A DNA stretch of 10,387 bases, taken from assembly GCA_023144585.1 (NCBI GenBank), contig JAGLFI010000019.1:1-10387 (forward strand), given 5' to 3'. Shown here piece by piece: positions 1 to 10,387 of this stretch. Each line of letters starts with the position of its first letter. Within the stretch, counting starts at the first letter, position 1. Source of the stretch: Desulfobacula sp. Its GTDB lineage: Bacteria > Desulfobacterota > Desulfobacteria > Desulfobacterales > Desulfobacteraceae. The notes beneath the pieces were generated by a model. That model was given only the letters and a program-made list of their open reading frames with translations. It had not been told where the DNA came from and did not search any database. The translations under genes were made by a program, and so were the position numbers.

Positions 1-105
1 AGAAAATCAGCCATAATGACCATTATCGGTTTTTTTATTATCGTATTTACATTTCTTGGGGTCAATATGCTGTTAGGCGGACATCACCAGCCCTTTACAA
101 AATAA
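1..105 (+). CDS. ccsA: C-terminal end of a CcsA/ResC-type cytochrome c biogenesis membrane protein (partial)
   Basis: Only the last 34 codons and the TAA stop (103-105) are in the window; the start is upstream. The visible peptide is a hydrophobic segment (IIGFFIIVFTFLGVN) followed by the short tail MLLGGHHQPFTK. The order of a final membrane helix, a GVNxLLxGxH-like element and a short tail is how CcsA/CcsB/ResC-type subunits of system II cytochrome c maturation end. That membrane complex carries heme across the cytoplasmic membrane and attaches it to apocytochromes c. The gene is followed after 10 bases by hemA, which fits a heme/cytochrome operon. The assignment rests on 34 residues, so another polytopic membrane protein cannot be excluded. 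Confidence 0.72.
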   Translation, partial: RKSAIMTIIGFFIIVFTFLGVNMLLGGHHQPFTK

Positions 106-115
106 AGAAAAAATA

Positions 116-1405
116 ATGTCAAAAATTATATTAATCGGAATAAATCATAAAACTGCATCTGTTGAACTCAGGGAGAAACTTTCTTTTTCCAGTGAGGATA
201 CAATAGCCGCACTTGAAATATTAAAGCAGGACATAGATATTAAAGAAAGTCTGATATTTTCCACCTGCAACCGGACAGAAGTTTTATATATCCCCCAGGC
301 CGGTGACCAGACCAATGATCAGGTTGATAAAATTACCGAGTTTATTTCACATCAAAGAAAAGTTGATAGTTCTGAATTTAAAAGTTCTTTATATATTTAT
401 AAAGAAGATGATGCGATTCGACATTTGTTCAAGGTCGCATCAAGCCTGGATTCAATGGTGGTGGGCGAGCCACAGATTTTAGGCCAGATAAAGCAGGCCT
501 ATCGGGTTGCCGTGGAAAATAATGCCTCGGGTGTGCTGTTGAATCGGTTGATGCACAAGGCGTTTAGTATTGCAAAAAAAGTCAGAAAAGAAACAGGGAT
601 AGGAGATAATGCGGTTTCCATCTCCTATGCGGCCATTGAACTTGCCAATAAAATATTTTCGGATCTATCCCAGAAAAGTGTCATGCTGCTGGGTGCCGGT
701 GAAATGGCGGAACTGGCTGTGGAGCACCTGATATCCAATAAAGTTAAAGATATTATAGTGGCGAATCGAACCTTTAAACATGCAGTGGATCTTGCCCAAA
801 AATTTAATGGGCAGGCCGTCAAGTTTGAAGAAAGGGAAGATGCATTAAAAGAGGTTGATATTATTATCAGCTCAACCGGTGCAGCAGATTATGTGCTGAC
901 TAAAACCCAGGTCAAGCGGGCCATGAAAAAAAGGCATCATCATACGCTTTTTTTCATTGATATTGCCGTTCCAAGGGATATCGATCCGAAAATTAACACG
1001 ATTTCCAACGCTTATGTCTATGATATTGATGATTTGAAAAATATTGTCGAGTCCAATATTGACCAACGGGGAAAAGAGACGGTTAAGGCCCAAAGATTTA
1101 TCGAAGAAGCTGTATTGAAATTTCGCAAATGGCTGGAAAGCCTTGCCATTGTATCGACGATCAAGGCATTGAATGATAAAATGTCTTCCATAGTTGACAT
1201 TGAGTTTAATAAAACTCTTTCAAATTTAAAGCATCTTTCTTCAGAAGATATCCAGGCAATCAAACGCATGACACAGGCCATTGCAAGCAGAAGCATTCAT
1301 GATCCCATCCTTTTTTTACGTAATACCGGTAACCATAGAGATGATTCTCTTTATCTGAGTGTCACCCACCAATTATTTAATATAGACATACCTGAAAAAG
1401 AATAG
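116..1405 (+). CDS. hemA: Glutamyl-tRNA reductase
   Basis: This enzyme uses NADPH to reduce glutamyl-tRNA(Glu) to glutamate-1-semialdehyde, the first committed step of C5-pathway tetrapyrrole synthesis, in the cytoplasm. The 429-residue length is normal for the family. The N-terminal catalytic domain opens with GINHKTASVELREKL and contains STCNRTE with the thioester-forming cysteine at C51. The conserved stretch SLDSMVVGEPQILGQ lies around 110-124. The NADPH-binding domain carries GAGEMAELA at 193-201, and the helical C-terminal dimerisation domain runs from about residue 325 to the end. The ATG at 116 lies 10 bases after the upstream stop, and the sequence before it is A-rich with no strong ribosome binding site, so translation is probably coupled to the upstream gene. 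Pairing with a cytochrome c maturation gene suggests matched heme supply. Identification is firm. Confidence 0.97.
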   Translation: MSKIILIGINHKTASVELREKLSFSSEDTIAALEILKQDIDIKESLIFSTCNRTEVLYIPQAGDQTNDQVDKITEFISHQRKVDSSEFKSSLYIYKEDDAIRHLFKVASSLDSMVVGEPQILGQIKQAYRVAVENNASGVLLNRLMHKAFSIAKKVRKETGIGDNAVSISYAAIELANKIFSDLSQKSVMLLGAGEMAELAVEHLISNKVKDIIVANRTFKHAVDLAQKFNGQAVKFEEREDALKEVDIIISSTGAADYVLTKTQVKRAMKKRHHHTLFFIDIAVPRDIDPKINTISNAYVYDIDDLKNIVESNIDQRGKETVKAQRFIEEAVLKFRKWLESLAIVSTIKALNDKMSSIVDIEFNKTLSNLKHLSSEDIQAIKRMTQAIASRSIHDPILFLRNTGNHRDDSLYLSVTHQLFNIDIPEKE

Positions 1406-1432
1406 CCAAAGATATTGTTAATTTGCTTTGTC

Positions 1433-1444
1433 ATTAGGCCTAAT
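1433..1444. repeat. 12-base perfect palindrome upstream of the dksA promoter
   Basis: ATTAGGCCTAAT is self-complementary over 12 bases and ends 25 bases before the -35 element of the dksA promoter. It could be a regulator half-site pair. A 12-base palindrome is expected by chance a few times in 10 kb, so this is weak evidence on its own. Confidence 0.25.
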
Positions 1445-1469
1445 CGTGTCATGTCGGACCATTTAATTC

Positions 1470-1497
1470 TTTACATTTTATTAACTTCTAGTATAAT
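1470..1497 (+). promoter_or_regulatory. Probable sigma-70 promoter for the dksA operon
   Basis: TTTACA (1470-1475) and TATAAT (1492-1497) are separated by 16 bases, giving 5/6 and 6/6 matches to the vegetative consensus. Transcription would begin near 1504, leaving a leader of about 40 bases before the dksA ATG. The bases after the -10 (ATTCTATTTT) form an A+T-rich discriminator, a type that in E. coli is not inhibited by ppGpp/DksA and may be stimulated. The element lies in the 139-base gap between hemA and dksA. I see no intrinsic terminator in that gap, so some read-through from hemA is possible. Confidence 0.75.
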
Positions 1498-1544
1498 ATT
1501 CTATTTTACGATGTTCTTGTAAATTAAGGTAAAGGGCAAATACA

Positions 1545-1907
1545 ATGAAAAAAGAAGATTTGAATTTTTTTAAAAATCTTTTAGATGATAGACTTCAGGA
1601 GCTGCTTTCCCATGCTGACAGCACTGTAACCGGTATGACCAAGCCAAAAGAGAATTTTCCCGATCCAACGGACAGGGCCGCCCATGAAGCTGAGAGAAAT
1701 TTTGAGCTTCGTATAAGAGACCGTGAGCATAAATTGATCAAAAAAATCAAAAAAGCGCTTTTACGTGTCGAAAACAAAACATTTGGAATATGTGAGGGTT
1801 GTGAGGAAAATATCTCTATTAAACGGCTTAAGGCACGACCTGTCACCACCCGGTGTATTGAGTGTAAAACACGTGAAGAGGATATGGAGAGGGCCCTTGG
1901 AGTTTAG
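1545..1907 (+). CDS. dksA: RNA polymerase-binding transcription factor DksA
   Basis: DksA binds the secondary channel of RNA polymerase and, with ppGpp, redirects transcription during starvation. The 120-residue protein has the expected layout. A first helix (about 1-30) is followed by the coiled-coil tip with NFPDPTDRAA, where D40, D43 and A45 match the DxxDxA tip motif required for activity. A second long basic helix follows to about residue 78, then a four-cysteine zinc finger with C83, C86, C104 and C107 (CxxC, 17 residues, CxxC), and a short C-terminal helix. It is shorter at the N terminus than E. coli DksA (151 residues), as is common outside the gammaproteobacteria. The ATG at 1545 is preceded by AAAGGG at 1531-1536 with an 8-base spacer, which supports this start. 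It is the first gene of a probable operon with the PHP-RNase III fusion 11 bases downstream. Confidence 0.95.
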   Translation: MKKEDLNFFKNLLDDRLQELLSHADSTVTGMTKPKENFPDPTDRAAHEAERNFELRIRDREHKLIKKIKKALLRVENKTFGICEGCEENISIKRLKARPVTTRCIECKTREEDMERALGV

Positions 1908-1918
1908 CTGGCGCCCCT

Positions 1919-3499
1919 ATGTATCAGGATAGTTCATTGATTGATCTTCATGTACATTCTACAGCTTCGGATGGTTCATTTTCCCCTTTAGAAATAATGA
2001 CTCTGGCAAAAAAAGTCGGAATCAGGGCCATTTCTATAACAGATCATGATACCATAAACGGTATCAGGCAAATCTTAAAACATCCCCTGAAAACTTGTCC
2101 GGAAGTTATTACCGGGGTTGAAATTAGTTGCGATCCGCCATCCGGGTTCAAAGATGTGGGTAGTATCCATCTGCTGGGATACGGGTTCAGTATTTATGAT
2201 AAAAATCTTAATACCATTCTTAATGATGCAAAAAAGGCCAGGGCCCAAAGAAATCCGAAAATCATTAAAAAGTTAAACAGCCTTGGATTTAACATCAGTA
2301 TTGAACAGGTTCAAGAGCATTTTGGTGCGGACCAGACCGGCCGCCCTCACATTGCAGAACTCATGAAAGAACTGGGATATATAAAAACCTTCAAAGAAGC
2401 GTTTGATAAGTATCTTGGTAAAAGCAAACCCGCTTATGTAGAGAAATATAAGGTGTCCTGCCAACAGGCAATTCAAACGATTCTTGAAGCAGGCGGTGTC
2501 CCAGTGCTGGCGCATCCCGGGTTGTTGACATTCAATAAAAGCCATGAGCTGGAAAATTTTATTGATACGCTTATCACCTATGGTCTTGTGGGTATAGAAG
2601 TTTATTATACAGATCATGATACTTCATTGACCTCTTTTTATCAAAGGCTTGCAAATCAAAAGAACCTGATGATGACAGGCGGTTCGGATTTTCATGGGGT
2701 CTTTAATGAAGGTGTTTGCCTTGGTTCGGGTAAAGATAATCTCAATATTGAGTATTCTTTATTTAAAGCATTAAATGCACGCTTGGAAGAGATTAAAAAA
2801 AAATATACAAATTTAAGCATTCTTGAAAATAATATCGGATATTCATTTAAAGACAAAGCATTATTGAGTAATGCAATGTGTCACAGATCTTATTTAAATG
2901 AAAATCAAAATTCATGCTCTTCTGATAATGAGCGACTTGAATTTTTAGGAGATGCCGTTTTAGGGTTATGCATCGGGCACATATTGATGGAAAAAAGTCC
3001 GTTAGAAAATGAAGGAGAGCTTTCAAAGCAAAGATCCAATCTTGTCAGTGAACCTGCCCTTGCTGATATGGCAAGGTTTATTGACCTTGGCAGGTTTATC
3101 AGGCTTGGAAAAGGAGAAGCCCTTTCCAGGGGATTTGATAAAAATTCCATACTGTCTGATACCTTTGAGGCTGTTATGGCAGCTGTTTATCTGGATGCAG
3201 GGTTTGATACTGTATATCGGCTGATTCATGATCTTTTCAGTGAAAGTTTTAAAAAGATTCTGTCAAATGAAAAAATTGTCGATTATAAGAGCATGTTGCA
3301 GGAATTTGCCCAGGAACATGGTGCAATAACACCTCAATATGTGGTTCTCAATGAGACCGGCCCTGATCATGATAAAACATTTGAGATCAGTTTGAATCTC
3401 TTTGATATCGAGTCCAAAGGTCTTGGAAAAACTAAAAAATCTGCAGAGCAGGATTCTGCTAAAAAAGCCCTGAAGATTCTTAATAAAATAAAGTCCTGA
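1919..3499 (+). CDS. rnc: PHP-domain phosphoesterase/exonuclease fused to ribonuclease III
   Basis: Two complete enzymes sit in one 526-residue frame. Residues 1-290 form a PHP domain of the YciV/TrpH (RNase AM) type: HVH at 11-13, D18, TDHD at 41-44, E68, H84, GRPHIA at 141-146, H199 in LAHPG, and SDFH at 256-259 supply the expected metal ligands. Residues 299-526 are a full RNase III. E338, E341 and D345 lie in ERLEFLGD and D414 and E417 in SDTFEA, matching E. coli E38, E41, D45, D114 and E117. A double-stranded-RNA-binding domain covers about 455-524. The linker (EEIKKKYTN) is short. The RNase III half has no separate ribosome binding site, and its first internal ATG (codon 320) would delete its first helix, so a true fusion is the best reading. 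The start at 1919 gives the usual PHP N terminus but has only a distant GGAG (1899-1902), suggesting coupling to dksA. Likely role: processing of structured RNA, including rRNA precursors. Confidence 0.93.
   Translation: MYQDSSLIDLHVHSTASDGSFSPLEIMTLAKKVGIRAISITDHDTINGIRQILKHPLKTCPEVITGVEISCDPPSGFKDVGSIHLLGYGFSIYDKNLNTILNDAKKARAQRNPKIIKKLNSLGFNISIEQVQEHFGADQTGRPHIAELMKELGYIKTFKEAFDKYLGKSKPAYVEKYKVSCQQAIQTILEAGGVPVLAHPGLLTFNKSHELENFIDTLITYGLVGIEVYYTDHDTSLTSFYQRLANQKNLMMTGGSDFHGVFNEGVCLGSGKDNLNIEYSLFKALNARLEEIKKKYTNLSILENNIGYSFKDKALLSNAMCHRSYLNENQNSCSSDNERLEFLGDAVLGLCIGHILMEKSPLENEGELSKQRSNLVSEPALADMARFIDLGRFIRLGKGEALSRGFDKNSILSDTFEAVMAAVYLDAGFDTVYRLIHDLFSESFKKILSNEKIVDYKSMLQEFAQEHGAITPQYVVLNETGPDHDKTFEISLNLFDIESKGLGKTKKSAEQDSAKKALKILNKIKS
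2795..2803 (+). other. Nine-A run at the PHP/RNase III domain junction (possible slippage site)
   Basis: The codons ATT AAA AAA AAA TAT contain A9 exactly at the boundary between the two enzymatic domains. Loss of one A leads to stop TAA after KKNIQI, giving a 298-residue protein. Gain of one A leads to TGA after KKKIYKFKHS, giving a 302-residue protein. Either way a PHP-only product results. A runs of nine are a known size for transcriptional slippage, but the A-rich genome makes a chance run possible, and slippage is not demonstrated by sequence. Confidence 0.35.
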
Positions 3500-3558
3500 A
3501 AAAGAAAGCCCGGAAGAATAAAACCTGAAAAAATTAAATTGGATCGGCGGCTTCACTC

Positions 3559-4605
3559 ATGGATCACACTATAAAACCTCTTGTTATACCGGTATTTATT
3601 CCCCACTCAGGGTGCCCCCATCAATGCGTATTCTGTAATCAATCCATTATTACCAATCAAAAATCAAGAGTGCCAACGTTACCAAGGATGCCGGATAAAA
3701 CAGCCATCCATCAAATTGTGACAGAGTATTTACAATATAAAGGCCTTCGAAAATACGTGGAACTTGCTTTTTTCGGTGGCAATTTTTTGGGACTGGAACA
3801 CGAAATCATCATCCAACTGCTTGATCTGGTTCAGCCCTATATCCATACAAAAAAAATTGACGGCATACGGTTTTCCACCCGACCGGATACTATTAGCCAA
3901 CAGACGCTTGATCTTGTCCACCCTTATAAATTATCTGCCATTGAGCTGGGCGTTCAGTCCATGAACGATGAGGTGCTGTCAAAATCAAGAAGAGGCCACA
4001 CCAGCATGGATACATTAAAAGCAATAAATTTGCTGAAAGAATATCCATACAAAATTGGTGTCCAGGTCATGGTAGGGCTTCCGGGTGACCATGAGGAATC
4101 CTTGTTTGAAAGTACAAAAAAAGTGGCACAATTTGCCCCGGACTTTGCCAGAATTTATCCATTGATGGTGTTGAAAGACAGCCTTATGGAACAATGGTAT
4201 ACCCAGGGAAGATATCAACCCTTAACCCTGGAAGAAAGTATCCGGCTTGTAAAAGGAATGGTTCAGATATTTAAAGCGGCTAAGGTGGATATTATTCGCA
4301 TGGGACTACAGGCTTCCGACATGATGGAAGATGAATCAATGGTGTTGGCCGGCCCATGGCATCCGGCCTTCGGTCATCTTGTTTTTTCTGAACTTTTTTA
4401 TGATAGCGTTTGCAATAAGATAGACCGATCACTGGAATTGCTGAAATCAGAAAGGCTTGACCTGATTGTTCATCCAAAATCAGAGTCCCGCCTGAGAGGG
4501 GACAAAAACATTAATTTAAAAAGGCTTGAACTGCGATATCCATCCTTAAAGTTTTCAATCCGTTTGGATGCAGCACTGTCAGCTGATGGGGTAGACATCA
4601 GCTAA
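3559..4605 (+). CDS. Elp3-like radical SAM protein, no acetyltransferase domain
   Basis: This is a 348-residue radical SAM enzyme. C19, C23 and C26 in GCPHQCVFCNQ form the CxxxCxxC ligand set for the [4Fe-4S] cluster that cleaves S-adenosylmethionine. FFGGNF at 71-76 is the SAM-contacting glycine motif, with asparagine and leucine where the family commonly has serine and threonine (GGSFTG). RFSTRPD, ELGVQSMNDEVL and GVQVMVGLPGD follow in the order found in Elp3/coproporphyrinogen-oxidase-like barrels. The late GPWHPAFGHLVFSE motif is typical of the short Elp3-like proteins often encoded next to rnc in clostridia. The GNAT domain of true Elp3 is absent. The substrate is unknown; RNA modification is a guess from homology and from the RNase III neighbour. 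It lies 59 bases after the fusion gene with only a weak GGCGG at 3546-3550 before ATG, and is the last gene of the operon. Confidence 0.9.
   Translation: MDHTIKPLVIPVFIPHSGCPHQCVFCNQSIITNQKSRVPTLPRMPDKTAIHQIVTEYLQYKGLRKYVELAFFGGNFLGLEHEIIIQLLDLVQPYIHTKKIDGIRFSTRPDTISQQTLDLVHPYKLSAIELGVQSMNDEVLSKSRRGHTSMDTLKAINLLKEYPYKIGVQVMVGLPGDHEESLFESTKKVAQFAPDFARIYPLMVLKDSLMEQWYTQGRYQPLTLEESIRLVKGMVQIFKAAKVDIIRMGLQASDMMEDESMVLAGPWHPAFGHLVFSELFYDSVCNKIDRSLELLKSERLDLIVHPKSESRLRGDKNINLKRLELRYPSLKFSIRLDAALSADGVDIS
4581..4603. other. Perfect 8-bp hairpin between convergent genes
   Basis: AGCTGATG (4581-4588) and CATCAGCT (4596-4603) are exact inverse complements around a 7-base loop. The structure covers the last codons and part of the stop codon of the radical SAM gene and ends 10 bases before the stop codon of the oppositely oriented PBP1A gene. 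Neither strand has a T-run directly after the stem, so it is not a classical intrinsic terminator. It might shield both transcript ends or act as a weak bidirectional terminator. Confidence 0.4.
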
Positions 4606-4612
4606 TCCCATC

Positions 4613-7018
4613 CTAAATTCCTTCTTTAAAAAAATCTTCGGAACCAGAAGCAGTATCTGGTTTAGGTGTATGTTCCGTCGGCATGGTGCCTTCCTTGAAA
4701 CATTCAAAGATTGTCTTTTCAGATTCTTCAATGGGGAGCAGCCCTGTTTTGGCATCAATTTTGGCAAAAACAATGCCCTCAGGGACATTGAATGTCCGGG
4801 CAGGTTTTCCTTCCAACGTGTTTTTCATAAAGTCGAGCCAGATGGGACTGGCAGCCCTTGATCCGGTTTCTCCTTTTCCGAGAGGGGCTTCCTGGTCGAG
4901 CCCGACCCAGACGCCTGTGGTGTATCTGGGTGTATATCCCATGAACCAGGCATCAAAAAGATTGTTTGTTGTTCCGGTTTTCCCTGCAACAGGGCGGTTC
5001 AAAGCTTTAATTCGCCAGCCTGTTCCTGATTTTATAACGTTTTCCATAATATTGGTCATAATATAGGCCGTACTCATATCAATGACTTTTTTTCGTATCA
5101 GCTTGGAGGTTTCCAGCAGGTTCCCGTCACGGTCATAAATTTTTGTAATAAATACAGGCTCAATCAGGTAGCCCAGGTTTGAAAAAACAGAATAGGCATT
5201 GACAAGTTCAAGCAGAGAGAGTCCGGATGATCCAAGTGCTATGGATAAATCCTGGCTGATATCCGATGTAATTCCAAGTCTTCGGGAGTAATCAATAGTA
5301 TAGTCTATCCCGATATCCTGAAGGATTTTAATGGTGACAATATTTCTTGATTTAACGAGAGCATCGCGGAACAGGGTCGGGCCAAAAAATGTTTCTTTAT
5401 AATTACGGGGTTTCCAGATGAAATCACGTTCTATGTCTTCATATACAACCGGGGAATCTATGATCACAGTGGCAGCAGTATATCCCTTATCAAGAGCAGC
5501 AGCATAAATAATGGGTTTGAATGCGCTTCCCGGCTGGCGTCTGGATTGATAGGCTCGGTTAAACTGACTGTTTCTGTAATCGCGGCCGCCAATCATTACT
5601 TTTACATAGCCTGTTTCCGCCTCAATGCTCAACAACGCCGCCTGGGCAACGGGCTCCTGCTCCAGGGTAAATTCAAGCTCATTGTCTTCAACGATTTCAT
5701 TGAGTACTTTAACCATAATGATATCGCCAGGCTTAAAAACCTGGGAAGACTTTTTAATTTTGGTTTCATAATAAGCGACTTCATGGTCAGGTCTCCTGGC
5801 CCATGTCATGGTTTCAAGCTTGATGATGCCGTGGGAATTTCCGACTCGGACCCTGGTGACACCATTTTCATCATCAATACTTAATACAACTCCCTGATAG
5901 GTATTCCCTTTTTCCAGCAGCCTGTTCTCGATTTTTTCTGAAATTTGTGTGCAGAAATACTCTATTTGAAGGGCAGGGATATTTTTCAAGGGGCCTCGAT
6001 ATCCCGTTCGCTGATCAAGCTCAATCAGATCTTTAACTACAGCCTTTCTTCCGATTTTCTGGAGTTCAATATTAACGGCTGTATGTATTTGAAGTCCCTG
6101 TTTGTATAGGGCATCCTTACCATAATGTTTTTCCACATATCGTCTGACATGCTCGGTATAACAGGGTACTCTCTCAATAAACCAGTTTTTCCGGGGCTTA
6201 ATATCCAGTTTAAGATCAATGGCTTCTGTGGCCTCAAGGTTTGTGATAAGGCCGTCTTCCTTCATTCGATTCAGCACATAAATCTGCCGCTGTTTTGCAC
6301 GATCGGGAAATCTAAAGGGAGAATATCTGCTGGGTGCCTGGGGAAGGCCTGCCAGCATTGAACATTCTGCTAAATTAAGATCTTTTGCATGTTTCCCAAA
6401 ATAATTCTCAGATGCAGATTCCACACCATGCGCCCCATGACCCAGATATATCTGGTTCAGATAAAGAAAAAGGATTTCATCTTTTGTAATTTTTTTTTCA
6501 ATCCTGTATGCGAGAATAGCTTCTTTGAGTTTTCTTTCATAGGTACGTTCCGGAGTTAGTAAAAAGGATTTAGTCACCTGCTGGGTGATTGTGGACCCCC
6601 CCTGAACAATAGTGCCGGCTTTAAGGTTTTTTAAAGAAGCTCTGACGATGGAAAGAATATCAATACCAAGGTGTTCCCTGAACCTTGAATCCTCTGCTGC
6701 CAAAAAAGCGTTAATCAGATTCTGCGGCATTTGGGATAAAGGGATGACAATCCTTCTTTCCTTATAAAATTCTCCAATTTTTCTTCCGTCATCTGAAAAT
6801 ACACTGGTAACAGTGGCAGGACGGTAATCGTTCAAGGTGTTTATTTTGGGCAGATCCTGGCTGAGATAATAGTAAAGGCCGGCAATTCCTGCACAACCCA
6901 GAAGACTTAAGAGTACGAATAGAATAAAAATCCACTTGAAAAGAAAGAGAATAACGCTTTTTTTCTTTTTCTTCCTTCTTTTTTTCATTATCTCGGATTT
7001 ACTTTTTCGTTTTGCCAT
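4613..7018 (-). CDS. mrcA: Class A penicillin-binding protein 1A (bifunctional peptidoglycan glycosyltransferase/transpeptidase)
   Basis: The protein polymerises lipid II glycan strands and cross-links peptides at the outer face of the cytoplasmic membrane. From ATG 7018 it has 801 residues, normal for PBP1A. A very basic cytoplasmic tail (KKRRKKKKK) precedes one membrane helix at about 21-51. The GT51 domain has AAEDSRF with catalytic E109, then GGSTITQQ and LNQIYLGHGAHGVESA. An OB-like insert lies at about 375-460. The transpeptidase domain has SAFK with acylated S498, SRN at 557-559 and KTG at 680-682. A GTG at 7024 would add two residues, but AGG five bases before the ATG favours 7018. 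The C-terminal tail is short and low in complexity. The gene lies 138 bases after the EAL-HDOD gene on the same strand and converges on the radical SAM gene with a 7-base gap. Confidence 0.96.
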   Translation of the reverse strand: MAKRKSKSEIMKKRRKKKKKSVILFLFKWIFILFVLLSLLGCAGIAGLYYYLSQDLPKINTLNDYRPATVTSVFSDDGRKIGEFYKERRIVIPLSQMPQNLINAFLAAEDSRFREHLGIDILSIVRASLKNLKAGTIVQGGSTITQQVTKSFLLTPERTYERKLKEAILAYRIEKKITKDEILFLYLNQIYLGHGAHGVESASENYFGKHAKDLNLAECSMLAGLPQAPSRYSPFRFPDRAKQRQIYVLNRMKEDGLITNLEATEAIDLKLDIKPRKNWFIERVPCYTEHVRRYVEKHYGKDALYKQGLQIHTAVNIELQKIGRKAVVKDLIELDQRTGYRGPLKNIPALQIEYFCTQISEKIENRLLEKGNTYQGVVLSIDDENGVTRVRVGNSHGIIKLETMTWARRPDHEVAYYETKIKKSSQVFKPGDIIMVKVLNEIVEDNELEFTLEQEPVAQAALLSIEAETGYVKVMIGGRDYRNSQFNRAYQSRRQPGSAFKPIIYAAALDKGYTAATVIIDSPVVYEDIERDFIWKPRNYKETFFGPTLFRDALVKSRNIVTIKILQDIGIDYTIDYSRRLGITSDISQDLSIALGSSGLSLLELVNAYSVFSNLGYLIEPVFITKIYDRDGNLLETSKLIRKKVIDMSTAYIMTNIMENVIKSGTGWRIKALNRPVAGKTGTTNNLFDAWFMGYTPRYTTGVWVGLDQEAPLGKGETGSRAASPIWLDFMKNTLEGKPARTFNVPEGIVFAKIDAKTGLLPIEESEKTIFECFKEGTMPTEHTPKPDTASGSEDFFKEGI

Positions 7019-7074
7019 AACCACCTGAAAAATATTTAATGTTTTTTTAAGGGCTTATTATCAGATTCCTTGTG

Positions 7075-7093
7075 TTATGGCAATACTTATGGC
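7075..7093. repeat. Direct repeat TTATGGC with 12-base period upstream of PBP1A
   Basis: TTATGGC occurs at 7075-7081 and 7087-7093 with five bases between, so the copies are 12 bases apart. They lie 57-75 bases upstream of the PBP1A start, within the only gap that could carry its promoter, and may be a regulator binding site. A third copy lies inside the neighbouring coding sequence near 7176, so chance is a fair explanation. Confidence 0.25.
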
Positions 7094-7109
7094 GTTGCAA
7101 AACAGGGTA

Positions 7110-7115
7110 ATTATA
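7110..7115 (-). promoter_or_regulatory. Possible -10 element for PBP1A
   Basis: On the minus strand a perfect TATAAT lies about 92 bases before the PBP1A start. The matching -35 region is poor, with no hexamer at 16-18 bases better than 3/6. An alternative pairing uses TTGCAA (7095-7100) with TAACAC (7072-7077) at 17 bases. Read-through from the EAL-HDOD gene is also possible because no intrinsic terminator is visible between the two genes. Confidence 0.35.
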
Positions 7116-7156
7116 AGTGAGTTTTTAAATTTTTGGTATAAAAATCATACTTCTCT

Positions 7157-8368
7157 TCAAGTATAAAAGGCATTTGCCATATTTATGGCATCGGAATAGA
7201 GTTTTGGTAATTTTTTCTCAATATCGGTCCTTTTAAAAGCCTTGAAAATAGGTTGATTCCAGTTGCCTTTTTCAAATCCCATTATAATATCCAGCATCCT
7301 GGAAAATTCCCGATCATTTCCAAGCAGCGCATTTTTCATCTTATCGGAAAATGCAAGATGTTGGAGAATATCTTCCATTTTAGAATCCATTAGCGCATCC
7401 ATGTAAGAAAACAGACCCAGCGTAAACAGTTCATCAACTGAAAACTTGCTTTTGAAAATTTGACTGAATTTTTCACACATTCTGGCCCGAATGATCGAAA
7501 AACGGATCAACTCATTGGGTTTTGTGTCGCCTAAATCGGAAACAACCACCACGTTGATAAATTTTCTGAGTTCATCCTCGCCAATGTATGCAATGGCATC
7601 CTTGATCGTATCAATGGGAATTCTTCTGCTGAAATATGCTGAATTGGCATACTTGAGCAGCTTAAAAGAGAGCGGAGCATCATTTTTTATAAAAGATTCG
7701 ATTTTTTTAACGTCCAGATTGTTTTGTCCGATTTCATTGACCACTTTGAGTTTGGTAATATGGTTGGTTGATATCCCCTTGGTAGATATTACCTCGGGCC
7801 TGGCAAAAAAATATCCCTGGAAATAGTGAAAGCCCATCTGTTTTGCAATGTTAAATTCATCATAGGTCTCCACCTTCTCAGCCAGCAATTTTAAATTATA
7901 TTTGGACTGAAGGTCATCAATGATGTCTATAAGTGAAGTCAGCGGGGTTGCAACCAAATCAAATTTTATGATTTTGGACAATTTAATCATGGGTTCAAAT
8001 TTTTTGTGATAAACAAAGTCGTCCAGTGCAATGCTGTATCCTCTTTCATTCAACAGGGAAAGGGCAGATACGATATCATCGTCCGGTTCGATATCTTCAA
8101 GGACTTCAATGATAAATTGTTCTTTGGGGAGAAATAAAGGAGCCTTATCCAGAATTAATTTTTTTGTAAAGTTGATCAGGCCTTTCTTATTACCCAGAAT
8201 CTGCTGGATCTCAAAAGGGAAAAAAAGATTGGATAACAGGTTTTTAGTGGCGGTATCACCGTCTATATCGGGAAAAGCATTGGTGATCCCAGATCTGAAC
8301 AGAAGCTCGTAACCGAAGAGTTTCTTGTTTTTGGTAAAAATAGGCTGTCTTGCTAAAAAAACTTCCAT
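7157..8368 (-). CDS. EAL-HDOD signalling protein (YuxH/CdgJ type)
   Basis: A 403-residue soluble protein with an N-terminal EAL-like domain (about 1-195) and a C-terminal HDOD domain (about 200-400). The start MEVFLARQPIF and GYELLFR at 19-25 are typical of stand-alone EAL-HDOD proteins. Several c-di-GMP phosphodiesterase positions remain: E21, N66, E88, D116, D117, K135, E164 and E167, plus QGYFFARP at 184-191. The loop after DDF reads VYHKK instead of the usual GTGYSS-like sequence, and ELL replaces EAL, so catalysis is doubtful. The HDOD half has SAYFSRRIPIDTIKDAIAYIG, the family core, without catalytic HD residues. Related proteins affect motility or surface behaviour, often without c-di-GMP turnover; the role here is unknown. 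The start is clear from homology although no ribosome binding site precedes it. It has a probable promoter at 8410-8437. Confidence 0.94.
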   Translation of the reverse strand: MEVFLARQPIFTKNKKLFGYELLFRSGITNAFPDIDGDTATKNLLSNLFFPFEIQQILGNKKGLINFTKKLILDKAPLFLPKEQFIIEVLEDIEPDDDIVSALSLLNERGYSIALDDFVYHKKFEPMIKLSKIIKFDLVATPLTSLIDIIDDLQSKYNLKLLAEKVETYDEFNIAKQMGFHYFQGYFFARPEVISTKGISTNHITKLKVVNEIGQNNLDVKKIESFIKNDAPLSFKLLKYANSAYFSRRIPIDTIKDAIAYIGEDELRKFINVVVVSDLGDTKPNELIRFSIIRARMCEKFSQIFKSKFSVDELFTLGLFSYMDALMDSKMEDILQHLAFSDKMKNALLGNDREFSRMLDIIMGFEKGNWNQPIFKAFKRTDIEKKLPKLYSDAINMANAFYT

Positions 8369-8409
8369 GTTTTTTTAAATCATTTTTTTTAGCTTCATTT
8401 AAATCTATT

Positions 8410-8437
8410 ATTATAGGGAGAAAAAGGGGTTTGTAAT
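8410..8437 (-). promoter_or_regulatory. Probable sigma-70 promoter for the EAL-HDOD gene
   Basis: On the minus strand TATAAT (8410-8415) is preceded by ATTACA (8432-8437) at 16 bases, 6/6 and 4/6 matches to consensus. Transcription would start near 8403, leaving a leader of about 35 A-rich bases before the ATG at 8368. The leader lacks a Shine-Dalgarno sequence. Confidence 0.6.
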
Positions 8438-8458
8438 GATTTGTTTTCATAACAAATC
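8438..8458. promoter_or_regulatory. Palindrome abutting the EAL-HDOD -35 element, possible operator
   Basis: GATTTGTT (8438-8445) and AACAAATC (8451-8458) are perfect 8-base inverse complements around a 5-base centre. The element touches the -35 hexamer and is centred about 45 bases upstream of the predicted transcription start, where an activator or repressor dimer could act. As RNA it would be an A+U-rich hairpin, but no T-run follows it on the minus strand, so a terminator for the upstream repeat-protein gene is unlikely. Confidence 0.4.
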
Positions 8459-8486
8459 CCTAAAAAAAAGTAAATTTATTTATTTA

Positions 8487-10387
8487 TTATTTTATTTTCC
8501 TCAAGACCCTGGAGGACCATTTGGGATCATTCATCCGACTGCTCAGGCTTGTGCCCAGCTTGGAAAGTGTATGATTGGACTGTGCTTTTTCTTCAGCTTC
8601 CGTGTAGAGTTTCGCAGCAGTATCAGGATCATTCAGCTGGAGTAAAGAAATTTCTGCTAAAAACAACAGGTCATCAAATGATGTCAGTTTTTTTCGGGCC
8701 GACTGCACAATGTTTGATAAGAATATCATATCCGCGGTCTGATGATTTACAAGGGAGATCAGTTGAGCATAATCCCGCTGGGATTGACAGAGCGATTCTG
8801 CAGATTCATAGAGTTTTACAGTCCATTCCTTGTCCCCAACCCAGTTGAAAATTGCTCCGGCAGTACAACTGAAATCAAACAGGGTTTTGCTGTTTTCTTC
8901 GGCTTTAGCCAGCAGGGTTGACGCCCATTCCGTGTCATTGAATTTTTTTACTGCAATAGATGCGAGCTTGATAAGATCACTGTTTTTTTGGTTCTTATTT
9001 TCAATGCCGGTATAAATCTCACGAATCCAGGTCTCATCTTTGAGTGTATCGGCAATGGCACAGGTCAGTTCATCATAGTAACTAAAGTTGGTACATTTAT
9101 CCAGGAGTCCGGTATAAATGTCCCTGACCCAGGTTTCATCCCCTAAGTCCAAATGGATATCAGCACCAAGTTTGATGAAATCGTTAAAATTGACGGTAAG
9201 TGATTTTGCAAATTTGTAAAGTTTGGCTGTATAATAAGTGTCACCCGTTTTCTCAAACACCTCATGGGCCAGTGTCCGCATGGGGAAACAGGTTTTATTT
9301 TCCTGTTCTCTTAAAATAAAATCTGCATACAGATCTTTGAATTCCTCGCGTTTTTTCAGCTGAAAGGAAATTGCCGATGTCCAGGTCTCGTCATCTGTGA
9401 CAATGTCCTGGATAGCTTGGGCTGTTTTAATAAAGTCTGCATTTGTTTTTACAGCCCCTTCCGCCTGTTTGAGAACCTGAACAGCCGCATCCGTGTCTTT
9501 GAGATCTTTTGCCAGGGCAATGGCCAGGTCAACCAATTGGCTGCAGTCCGGATTTGTGGCAGCGGCTTTTTGATAAACAGCAGAGGCAAAGGATGCATCC
9601 CCAGTATTTTCGAATGCAGCTTTGGCAAGTTTCAGATAATCTGCAAACTTTTCAAAAACGGTTTCTGCTTTCTGATAAACTGACATTAGAAAATCTGCAT
9701 CATCCAGCTGTTCTTTTACGGTTTGAGCAAATTTGAGCAGCTCATCTCCGGATTCAAGGGATGCCAGGGCGCTTTTATAAATTTTCTGGGCAAGATCATT
9801 GTCTTGAAGGTCAGCCGTAACACCCGCTGCAAGGACAATAAAATCATCTGCCTTTGAGGCTTTTCTCATAGCTTTTTCATAAATATCTGCCGTCCGGTCT
9901 TTGTCTTTAAACATGTCCAGAATAGATTTTGCAAACGCAACAAAATCATCCATTTTTGAACATTTATCAAATGCCTTTTCAATGGTTTGTTCTGCAAGCT
10001 CTTTGTCTTTGAGAACTTTGGCGATATGATCGCTTAACTCCAGAAAATCCGTTACCTTGACACATTTTGTGCTTGCAGCACCGATGATATCTTTGGAAAC
10101 ATCTTCAAGCTTAAGTTCCTGTGCAGCTGCGGCAAGTTTTAGAAAATCCTCTGTTGAACTGCACAGGTTTTTACCCTGTTCCAAAAGGGAGGTGGCAGCT
10201 TTTTCATCTTCAAGCAGATCAATGCTGGCTTTGGCATATGCGACTGAGTTTTCAAAGGTTTCTGCCCAGTCAGCACCTTCTTCCAAAAGCTCAGCGGCCC
10301 ACTCTTTATCAGAAAGTCCGTCCACAATCTCTTTTGCCACGGCAATATATTCTTCCGGAGCATCACACTCCTCGGCTTTTTCTTCCA
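8487..10387 (-). CDS. Large TPR-like 34-residue helical repeat protein (partial, N terminus beyond the window)
   Basis: The frame is open from the TAA at 8487 to the right edge, at least 632 codons. A GTG near 10340 could start translation, but codons upstream of it already encode repeat sequence, so the true start lies outside. Almost the whole protein is tandem units, mostly 34 residues long. The usual pattern is D at position 3, F/L/Y at 4, L at 7, A at 8, hydrophobic at 11, L at 15, D at 17, A at 21, I/V/L then Y at 24-25, and KA at 27-28. This is the two-helix rhythm of TPR or HAT repeats, but the usual TPR glycine and proline positions are mostly missing. Composition is acidic, and no catalytic motif or membrane segment is visible. 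I do not recognise a named family. A protein-protein scaffold is the general expectation for such solenoids. The EAL-HDOD gene follows 118 bases downstream. Confidence 0.85.
   Translation of the reverse strand, partial: EEKAEECDAPEEYIAVAKEIVDGLSDKEWAAELLEEGADWAETFENSVAYAKASIDLLEDEKAATSLLEQGKNLCSSTEDFLKLAAAAQELKLEDVSKDIIGAASTKCVKVTDFLELSDHIAKVLKDKELAEQTIEKAFDKCSKMDDFVAFAKSILDMFKDKDRTADIYEKAMRKASKADDFIVLAAGVTADLQDNDLAQKIYKSALASLESGDELLKFAQTVKEQLDDADFLMSVYQKAETVFEKFADYLKLAKAAFENTGDASFASAVYQKAAATNPDCSQLVDLAIALAKDLKDTDAAVQVLKQAEGAVKTNADFIKTAQAIQDIVTDDETWTSAISFQLKKREEFKDLYADFILREQENKTCFPMRTLAHEVFEKTGDTYYTAKLYKFAKSLTVNFNDFIKLGADIHLDLGDETWVRDIYTGLLDKCTNFSYYDELTCAIADTLKDETWIREIYTGIENKNQKNSDLIKLASIAVKKFNDTEWASTLLAKAEENSKTLFDFSCTAGAIFNWVGDKEWTVKLYESAESLCQSQRDYAQLISLVNHQTADMIFLSNIVQSARKKLTSFDDLLFLAEISLLQLNDPDTAAKLYTEAEEKAQSNHTLSKLGTSLSSRMNDPKWSSRVLRKIK
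8490..10387 (-). repeat. Array of about 18 tandem 34-residue (about 102-base) repeats
   Basis: Repeat units inside the solenoid gene begin with short signatures such as PEEY, TEDF, VTDF, MDDF, ADDF, FADY, NADF, FNDF, NSDL, LFDF and FDDL. Most are exactly 34 residues apart; one is 33. The array is interrupted around 9240-9390, where a longer, irregular unit contains NKTCFPMRTLAHEVF. Two neighbouring units encode DETWVRDIYTG and DETWIREIYTG and share CCGGTATAAA at 9007 and 9109, exactly 102 bases apart, suggesting a fairly recent unit duplication. Other units are diverged at the DNA level. Confidence 0.85.

Follow-up and report, generated by a model that had tools for sequence, protein, structure and literature searches.

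A PHP domain and RNase III joined in one polypeptide in Desulfobacula and its relatives

Bacterial RNase III is normally a free protein, a homodimer that cleaves double-stranded RNA (dsRNA) and leaves 5′-phosphates and 2-nt 3′ overhangs. RNase AM, a PHP enzyme, was reportedly described only recently, by Jain in 2020, and to our knowledge little has been learned of its partners. As set out in PMC9410882, RNase AM degrades 5′-phosphorylated RNA in the 5′ to 3′ direction and acts on short RNA and on a 40-nt RNA. Elsewhere, it was identified as processing the final few nucleotides at Escherichia coli rRNA 5′ ends (PMC8406224), is listed as an exoribonuclease trimming rRNA intermediates (PMC9848016), and is named together with RNase III for processing of the leader-trailer helix of E. 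coli 23S rRNA (PMC10250234). We analyzed a 10,387-nucleotide stretch of Desulfobacula sp. DNA (the window; assembly GCA_023144585.1, contig JAGLFI010000019.1, positions 1 to 10,387 of the forward strand), in which a single gene encodes both a PHP domain and RNase III. These two parts are known separately; in the open literature that we searched, we found no paper linking RNase III to RNase AM or to a PHP domain, and the titles listed by broader searches showed nothing of the kind. The first-pass annotation of the window likewise knew of no such fusion, and no description of the class-wide PHP-rnc gene pair reported below was found in that literature. The fused gene is made up as follows (positions in the window):

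1919 to 3499, forward strand: fused gene, PHP domain plus RNase III plus dsRNA-binding domain (dsRBD), 526 aa, assigned from its frame and profile matches
1937 to 2728, forward strand: PHP domain, residues 7 to 270, with metal ligands H11, H13, D18, H43, E68, H84, H199, D257, and H259
within 1937 to 2728, forward strand: 5′-phosphate pocket of the PHP domain, R108, R111, and R142, with F162 for stacking
2753 to 2806, forward strand: linker, residues 279 to 296, a predicted helix continuous with the first RNase III helix (residues 299 to 306) in the structure model
2852 to 3232, forward strand: RNase III catalytic domain, residues 312 to 438, with metal ligands E341, D345, D414, and E417
3284 to 3481, forward strand: dsRBD, residues 456 to 521 (Pfam dsrm)

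Our analysis confirmed that the window gene is a genuine single-polypeptide fusion of PHP and RNase III. The first-pass annotation had read one unbroken frame with a PHP domain, RNase III, and a dsRBD, and all of this is borne out by the frame itself, by Pfam matches above gathering scores (PHP, residues 9 to 148; Ribonucleas_3_3, 312 to 438; Ribonuclease_3, 338 to 428; dsrm, 456 to 521, at 52.9 bits against a cutoff of 23), and by the RNase III model TIGR02191 (236.2 bits over residues 303 to 520; cutoff, 166.25). From its 526 residues, the full-length protein is estimated at ∼59 kDa; in a structure model (pLDDT, 90; pTM, 0.81), the linker between the halves is short and predicted to be helical. 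Median dN/dS values within the genus were 0.13 for the PHP domain, 0.11 for the RNase III domain, 0.15 for the dsRBD, and 0.23 for the linker (51, 49, 45, and 38 of 55 pairs kept, respectively, after those with undefined dS or dS ≥2.5 were dropped); by this measure, both halves appear to be under purifying selection. Bacterial RNase III (TIGR02191; for example, E. coli 7r97 and Thermotoga maritima 1o0w) has the endonuclease domain, dsRBD, and catalytic acids in common with the fusion but lacks an N-terminal PHP enzyme, and among the solved chains listed, none matches both halves.

To follow the architecture across the class Desulfobacteria, 192 genomes were searched for RNase III, with a match in 188; 183 genomes were fetched and read, and nine were not fetched. 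PHP and rnc are adjacent or fused in 165 of the 183: fused in 45 and adjacent but split in 120, in which RNase III is free and the PHP gene lies upstream of rnc on the same strand, with a median of 36.5 nt from the PHP stop to the first aligned RNase III residue. In the other 18, the stretch read did not contain both halves together (some of these are contig ends; in f40, it was 8/8), and these genomes were left out of the tree. Split pairs (for example, L204, L211, and L214) resemble the fusion in genes, order, and strand and differ from it in having two separate frames. The first-pass annotation had raised the questions of phylogenetic spread and of whether a separate rnc is missing from such genomes. 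The fusion proved widespread in the family to which the window belongs (35 of 36 genomes), the remaining ten fused genomes being spread over six other families, four of which also have split members; each of the 45 has exactly one RNase III match, so that no separate rnc is seen as far as drafts allow. Named genomes carrying the fusion include Desulfobacula, Desulfamplus, Desulfatibacillum, and Desulfobacteraceae bacterium Eth-SRB1, and Desulfobacula toluolica is among the named relatives in the protein search; the bacteria with the fusion include sulfate reducers. Public databases already contain fused proteins: among the relatives listed, NCBI names them ribonuclease III, and three JGI names are 3′,5′-nucleoside bisphosphate phosphatase, so annotation of these genomes conceals one of the two enzymes. 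Among named loci (the best 80 of at least 581), 7 were fused, 7 adjacent but split, 64 PHP only, and 2 RNase III only, counts that hold within the fetched flanks, some of which were ended by contig ends.

Outside the class, a search of 285 genomes of the phylum gave no end-to-end match to the fusion among the matches listed (down to ∼194 bits). Where both halves were among these matches (10 genomes), they lay on different contigs in nine and 128 kb apart in one, and no RNase III match was found at any of 10 non-class PHP places read, which were chosen mostly for their long reported frames. In two non-class genomes, the open frames of the PHP genes (L286 in G407 and L287 in G385) run for 295 and 314 codons, respectively, ahead of the PHP match, as candidate N-terminal extensions.

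Could the single frame be an artefact, or could it hide a second gene that yields free RNase III by internal initiation? Two features of the window invite the question, a run of nine A residues at 2795 to 2803 and an in-frame TTG at 2783. The first-pass annotation had pointed to an indel in this run as what would overturn the fusion. Relatives with 84 to 88% identity (G071, G041, and G099) share both frame and spacing at that point, and two of them have a different residue inside the encoded lysine run; the A run therefore hides no frameshift. A frameshift or assembly artefact in the window's family is further ruled out by the 35 fused genomes there, and the same architecture recurs in all 45 genomes, single-contig assemblies included. 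As for internal initiation, codons 255 to 319 of the window gene contain neither ATG nor GTG in frame, and none of the Shine-Dalgarno (SD)-like words looked for is present in 2601 to 2860. The earlier statement that no start codon or ribosome binding site precedes the RNase III half was therefore nearly right, its one omission being the TTG (codon 289, 2783 to 2785). Start codons do occur ahead of the RNase III part in 40 of the 45 fused genes, with an SD-like word in 12 of the 45; such words are equally scarce before split rnc starts (29/120), so this test does not tell fused from split. Because five of the 45 fused genes have no ATG, GTG, or TTG from −40 to +3 codons around the RNase III start, a nested rnc with its own start is not general. 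Altogether, we regard an artefact or hidden second gene as highly improbable. Same-frame split genomes gave no sign of programmed readthrough: 36 of the 120 share a frame, which is the chance expectation.

The catalytic residues of both halves were compared across the fused and split proteins. On the RNase III side, E341, D345, D414, and E417 are invariant in all 45 fused proteins, whereas 11 of them have Q in place of E338 (the other 34 have E); E338 is therefore not a metal ligand. Of the acids first proposed (E338, D345, D414, and E417), three stand, and E341, which presumably corresponds to E. coli E41, takes the place of E338. The acid equivalent to D414 is D in 45/45 fused proteins; in split proteins, it is N in 27/120 and G in 4/120.

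On the PHP side, the site proposed earlier (HVH at 11 to 13, TDHD at 41 to 44, E68, H199, D257, and H259) is intact and also takes in D18 and H84. All nine metal positions are identical in 45/45 fused proteins and nearly invariant in the 120 split proteins, which depart from them only by gaps in the alignment and, at E68, by a single Ile. Equivalents of RNase AM H13, D20, H45, E72, H83, H198, D255, and H257 are kept in all 45 fused proteins, and these residues show what is, on sequence, an intact three-metal site of the RNase AM/CV1693 type. In RNase AM, R107, R110, and R141 form the 5′-phosphate cavity and F161 serves in base stacking (PMC9410882); the corresponding R108, R111, R142, and F162 are present in 45/45 fused proteins, 120/120 split proteins, and 64/64 PHP-only loci among the named loci, and they mark a broad PHP group.

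Of the curated models, NF041577 (3′,5′-nucleoside bisphosphate phosphatase), which is linked to CV1693, matches the PHP half best, at 168 to 171 bits against a cutoff of 400. NF041661 (phosphoribosyl cyclic phosphate diphosphodiesterase) gave 95.7 bits (cutoff, 500). CV1693 (2yb1), which was solved with AMP and phosphate and equals RNase AM in fold closeness to the PHP half, and Bad_1165 (3e0f) both differ from the fusion in lacking an RNase III part. RNase AM itself (YciV/Rnm; 7ug9 and 9etk) is likewise separate. The first-pass label "RNase AM-like" holds for the fold and the 5′-phosphate pocket but not for strict membership, given the score against the RNase AM model and the replacement of Arg201 (both detailed below). 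A second, separate PHP protein of the same group (302 aa; L283, 401 to 1309, on contig 288 of G000) is more divergent, scoring 106 bits to NF041577, and a second PHP match of 64 to 107 bits was found in 22 of 25 fused genomes searched.

PHP and RNase III appear to have been joined on several separate occasions. With 165 concatenated rows in the tree, the distribution of the fused state requires nine changes, six of them forced by well-supported branches; nine were also needed, eight of them forced, on a carefully built tree restricted to 51 of the rows. A single origin, with one fused clade, was rejected on the 51-row tree (p-AU, 1.05e-5). Fused genes are scattered over a tree on which the PHP-rnc pair prevails, the pattern expected of repeated fusion. 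Gene trees cannot separate gain of fusion from its loss, and six of the nine events are each represented by a single genome and so could in part be assembly errors; the other three are represented by at least two genomes each (the window's own family, f2 g9, and f3 g64). We prefer the order of gain because, in non-class genomes, no end-to-end match was listed, the halves lie apart in all 10 genomes with both listed, and RNase III was missing from the 10 PHP places. The simplest course is from separate genes to a class-wide neighbor pair to repeated fusion; it is likely that the fusion derives from this conserved pair. Neither this origin nor the repeated appearance of the fusion was anticipated in the first-pass annotation.

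The genes flanking the fusion provide context and a control for chance joining:

1545 to 1907, forward strand: dksA, ending 11 bp upstream of the fused gene
3559 to 4605, forward strand: Elp3-like radical SAM gene, next downstream of the fused gene; fusion control

In 167 genomes, the fetched stretch that includes the PHP gene also contains a dksA match (a count by stretch, not by exact position). For the radical SAM gene, none of the 25 NCBIfam models shown reached its cutoff. Of the 180 genomes whose stretch includes rnc, 164 have this gene downstream of rnc and on its strand, often a few nucleotides away or overlapping. Only one in-frame join of rnc to the radical SAM gene was flagged in the 164 (G065), and it is doubtful; as closely spaced a pair was thus joined once at most, and closeness alone does not account for the nine PHP-rnc changes. 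In G065 (L071, 381 to 1307), rnc ends in an in-frame overlap with what is left of the C-terminal half of the radical SAM gene, which may reflect a deletion join or an assembly error.

With regard to function, we lean somewhat toward the fusion being a two-activity RNase, an endonuclease and a 5′-end trimmer on one chain, that probably serves rRNA 5′ maturation. Its RNase III half would dimerize, bind duplex RNA such as the stems of 16S and 23S precursors, and make staggered cuts that leave 5′-monophosphate ends; the PHP half, held beside the cut by the short helical linker, would bind the resulting 5′-phosphate and remove nucleotides 5′ to 3′ until it met the protected mature rRNA, or would finish off the released fragment. 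Fusion would supply cutter and trimmer one-to-one and in the same place. More tentatively, and with somewhat less than even expectation, we suggest that it may be a self-contained precursor-rRNA maturation enzyme in which the RNase III site passes the fresh 5′ end on to the PHP site, and that it arose up to nine times because these steps are coupled. The repeated joining hints that the two enzymes act consecutively on the same RNA; together with the conserved PHP-rnc pair, it constitutes gene-context evidence that RNase III has a working link with a PHP enzyme of this group. With the fused protein, the idea of cutting followed by trimming can be tested directly. Two fusion genomes (L280 and L281) have 16S-23S-5S operons with flanking duplexes around 16S and 23S; against 100 mononucleotide shuffles, the respective z values were −3.1 and −3.3 in L280, where the 16S duplex value was also reached by a shuffle, and −5.9 and −6.4 in L281. 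Because such stems are expected in most bacteria, these duplexes show only that a substrate exists.

Several observations weigh against a trimming role modeled on RNase AM. The PHP half scores 149.3 bits against the RNase AM model NF047791 (151.5 for the PHP part alone), far from the cutoff of 375, and RNase AM Arg201, which contacts a sulfate in the active site, is not kept: among the 45 fused proteins, it is L in 32 (the window's included), I in 9, S in 3, and F in 1. RNase J is above cutoff in 32/32 genomes (as two pieces on two contigs in G060), so the PHP half is not their only 5′-3′ exonuclease, and RNase E/G is also present. Finally, G088 is nested among fused relatives on a tree of RNase III, where the smallest well-supported set to include it has 11 rows (support, 96/82). 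At its locus (L040, 1429 to 3553), a free rnc comes directly after dksA, with the radical SAM gene behind it, the PHP half apparently having been cleanly deleted, and the genome, 88% complete, has no PHP match better than the divergent second copy; the PHP half is therefore probably dispensable in this lineage.

Two other explanations were considered. The PHP half might act on small molecules or very short RNA (as a 3′,5′-nucleoside bisphosphate phosphatase or nanoRNase) and remove end products, its place on one chain with RNase III serving supply or regulation rather than the trimming of ends that RNase III has cut. Its higher score with NF041577 than with the RNase AM model and its nearness in fold to CV1693 both agree with this, and the 5′-phosphate pocket would suit a small molecule or RNA alike; however, neither model's cutoff is reached, RNase AM, from the same group, acts on a 40-nt as well as on short RNA (PMC9410882), and repeated fusion to an endonuclease whose products carry 5′-phosphates better fits an RNA role. 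We consider this explanation rather unlikely. Alternatively, the fusion could be neutral, cotranscribed neighbors having lost the intervening stop and the halves acting independently on unrelated substrates. Chance joins should come easily to a pair that is adjacent or fused in 165/183 genomes with so short a median gap; G088 keeps RNase III without the PHP half, and dN/dS is higher in the linker. Yet the control pair, equally close, was joined at most once (to a remnant) against nine PHP-rnc changes, the fused state has been retained through the window's family, and the linker is short and predicted to be helical rather than loose. A neutral origin of this kind thus strikes us as quite unlikely, and the two-activity RNase remains our preferred reading.

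Farther along the window, two reverse-strand genes encode proteins of other kinds. The gene at 8487 to 10385, which runs off the window, encodes an acidic, repeat-like protein at least 632 aa long, whose 617-aa part (from the first GTG) has neither a Pfam nor an NCBIfam match. The gene at 7157 to 8368 encodes an EAL plus HDOD protein, which may not be an active phosphodiesterase because its EAL match covers only profile positions 114 to 236.
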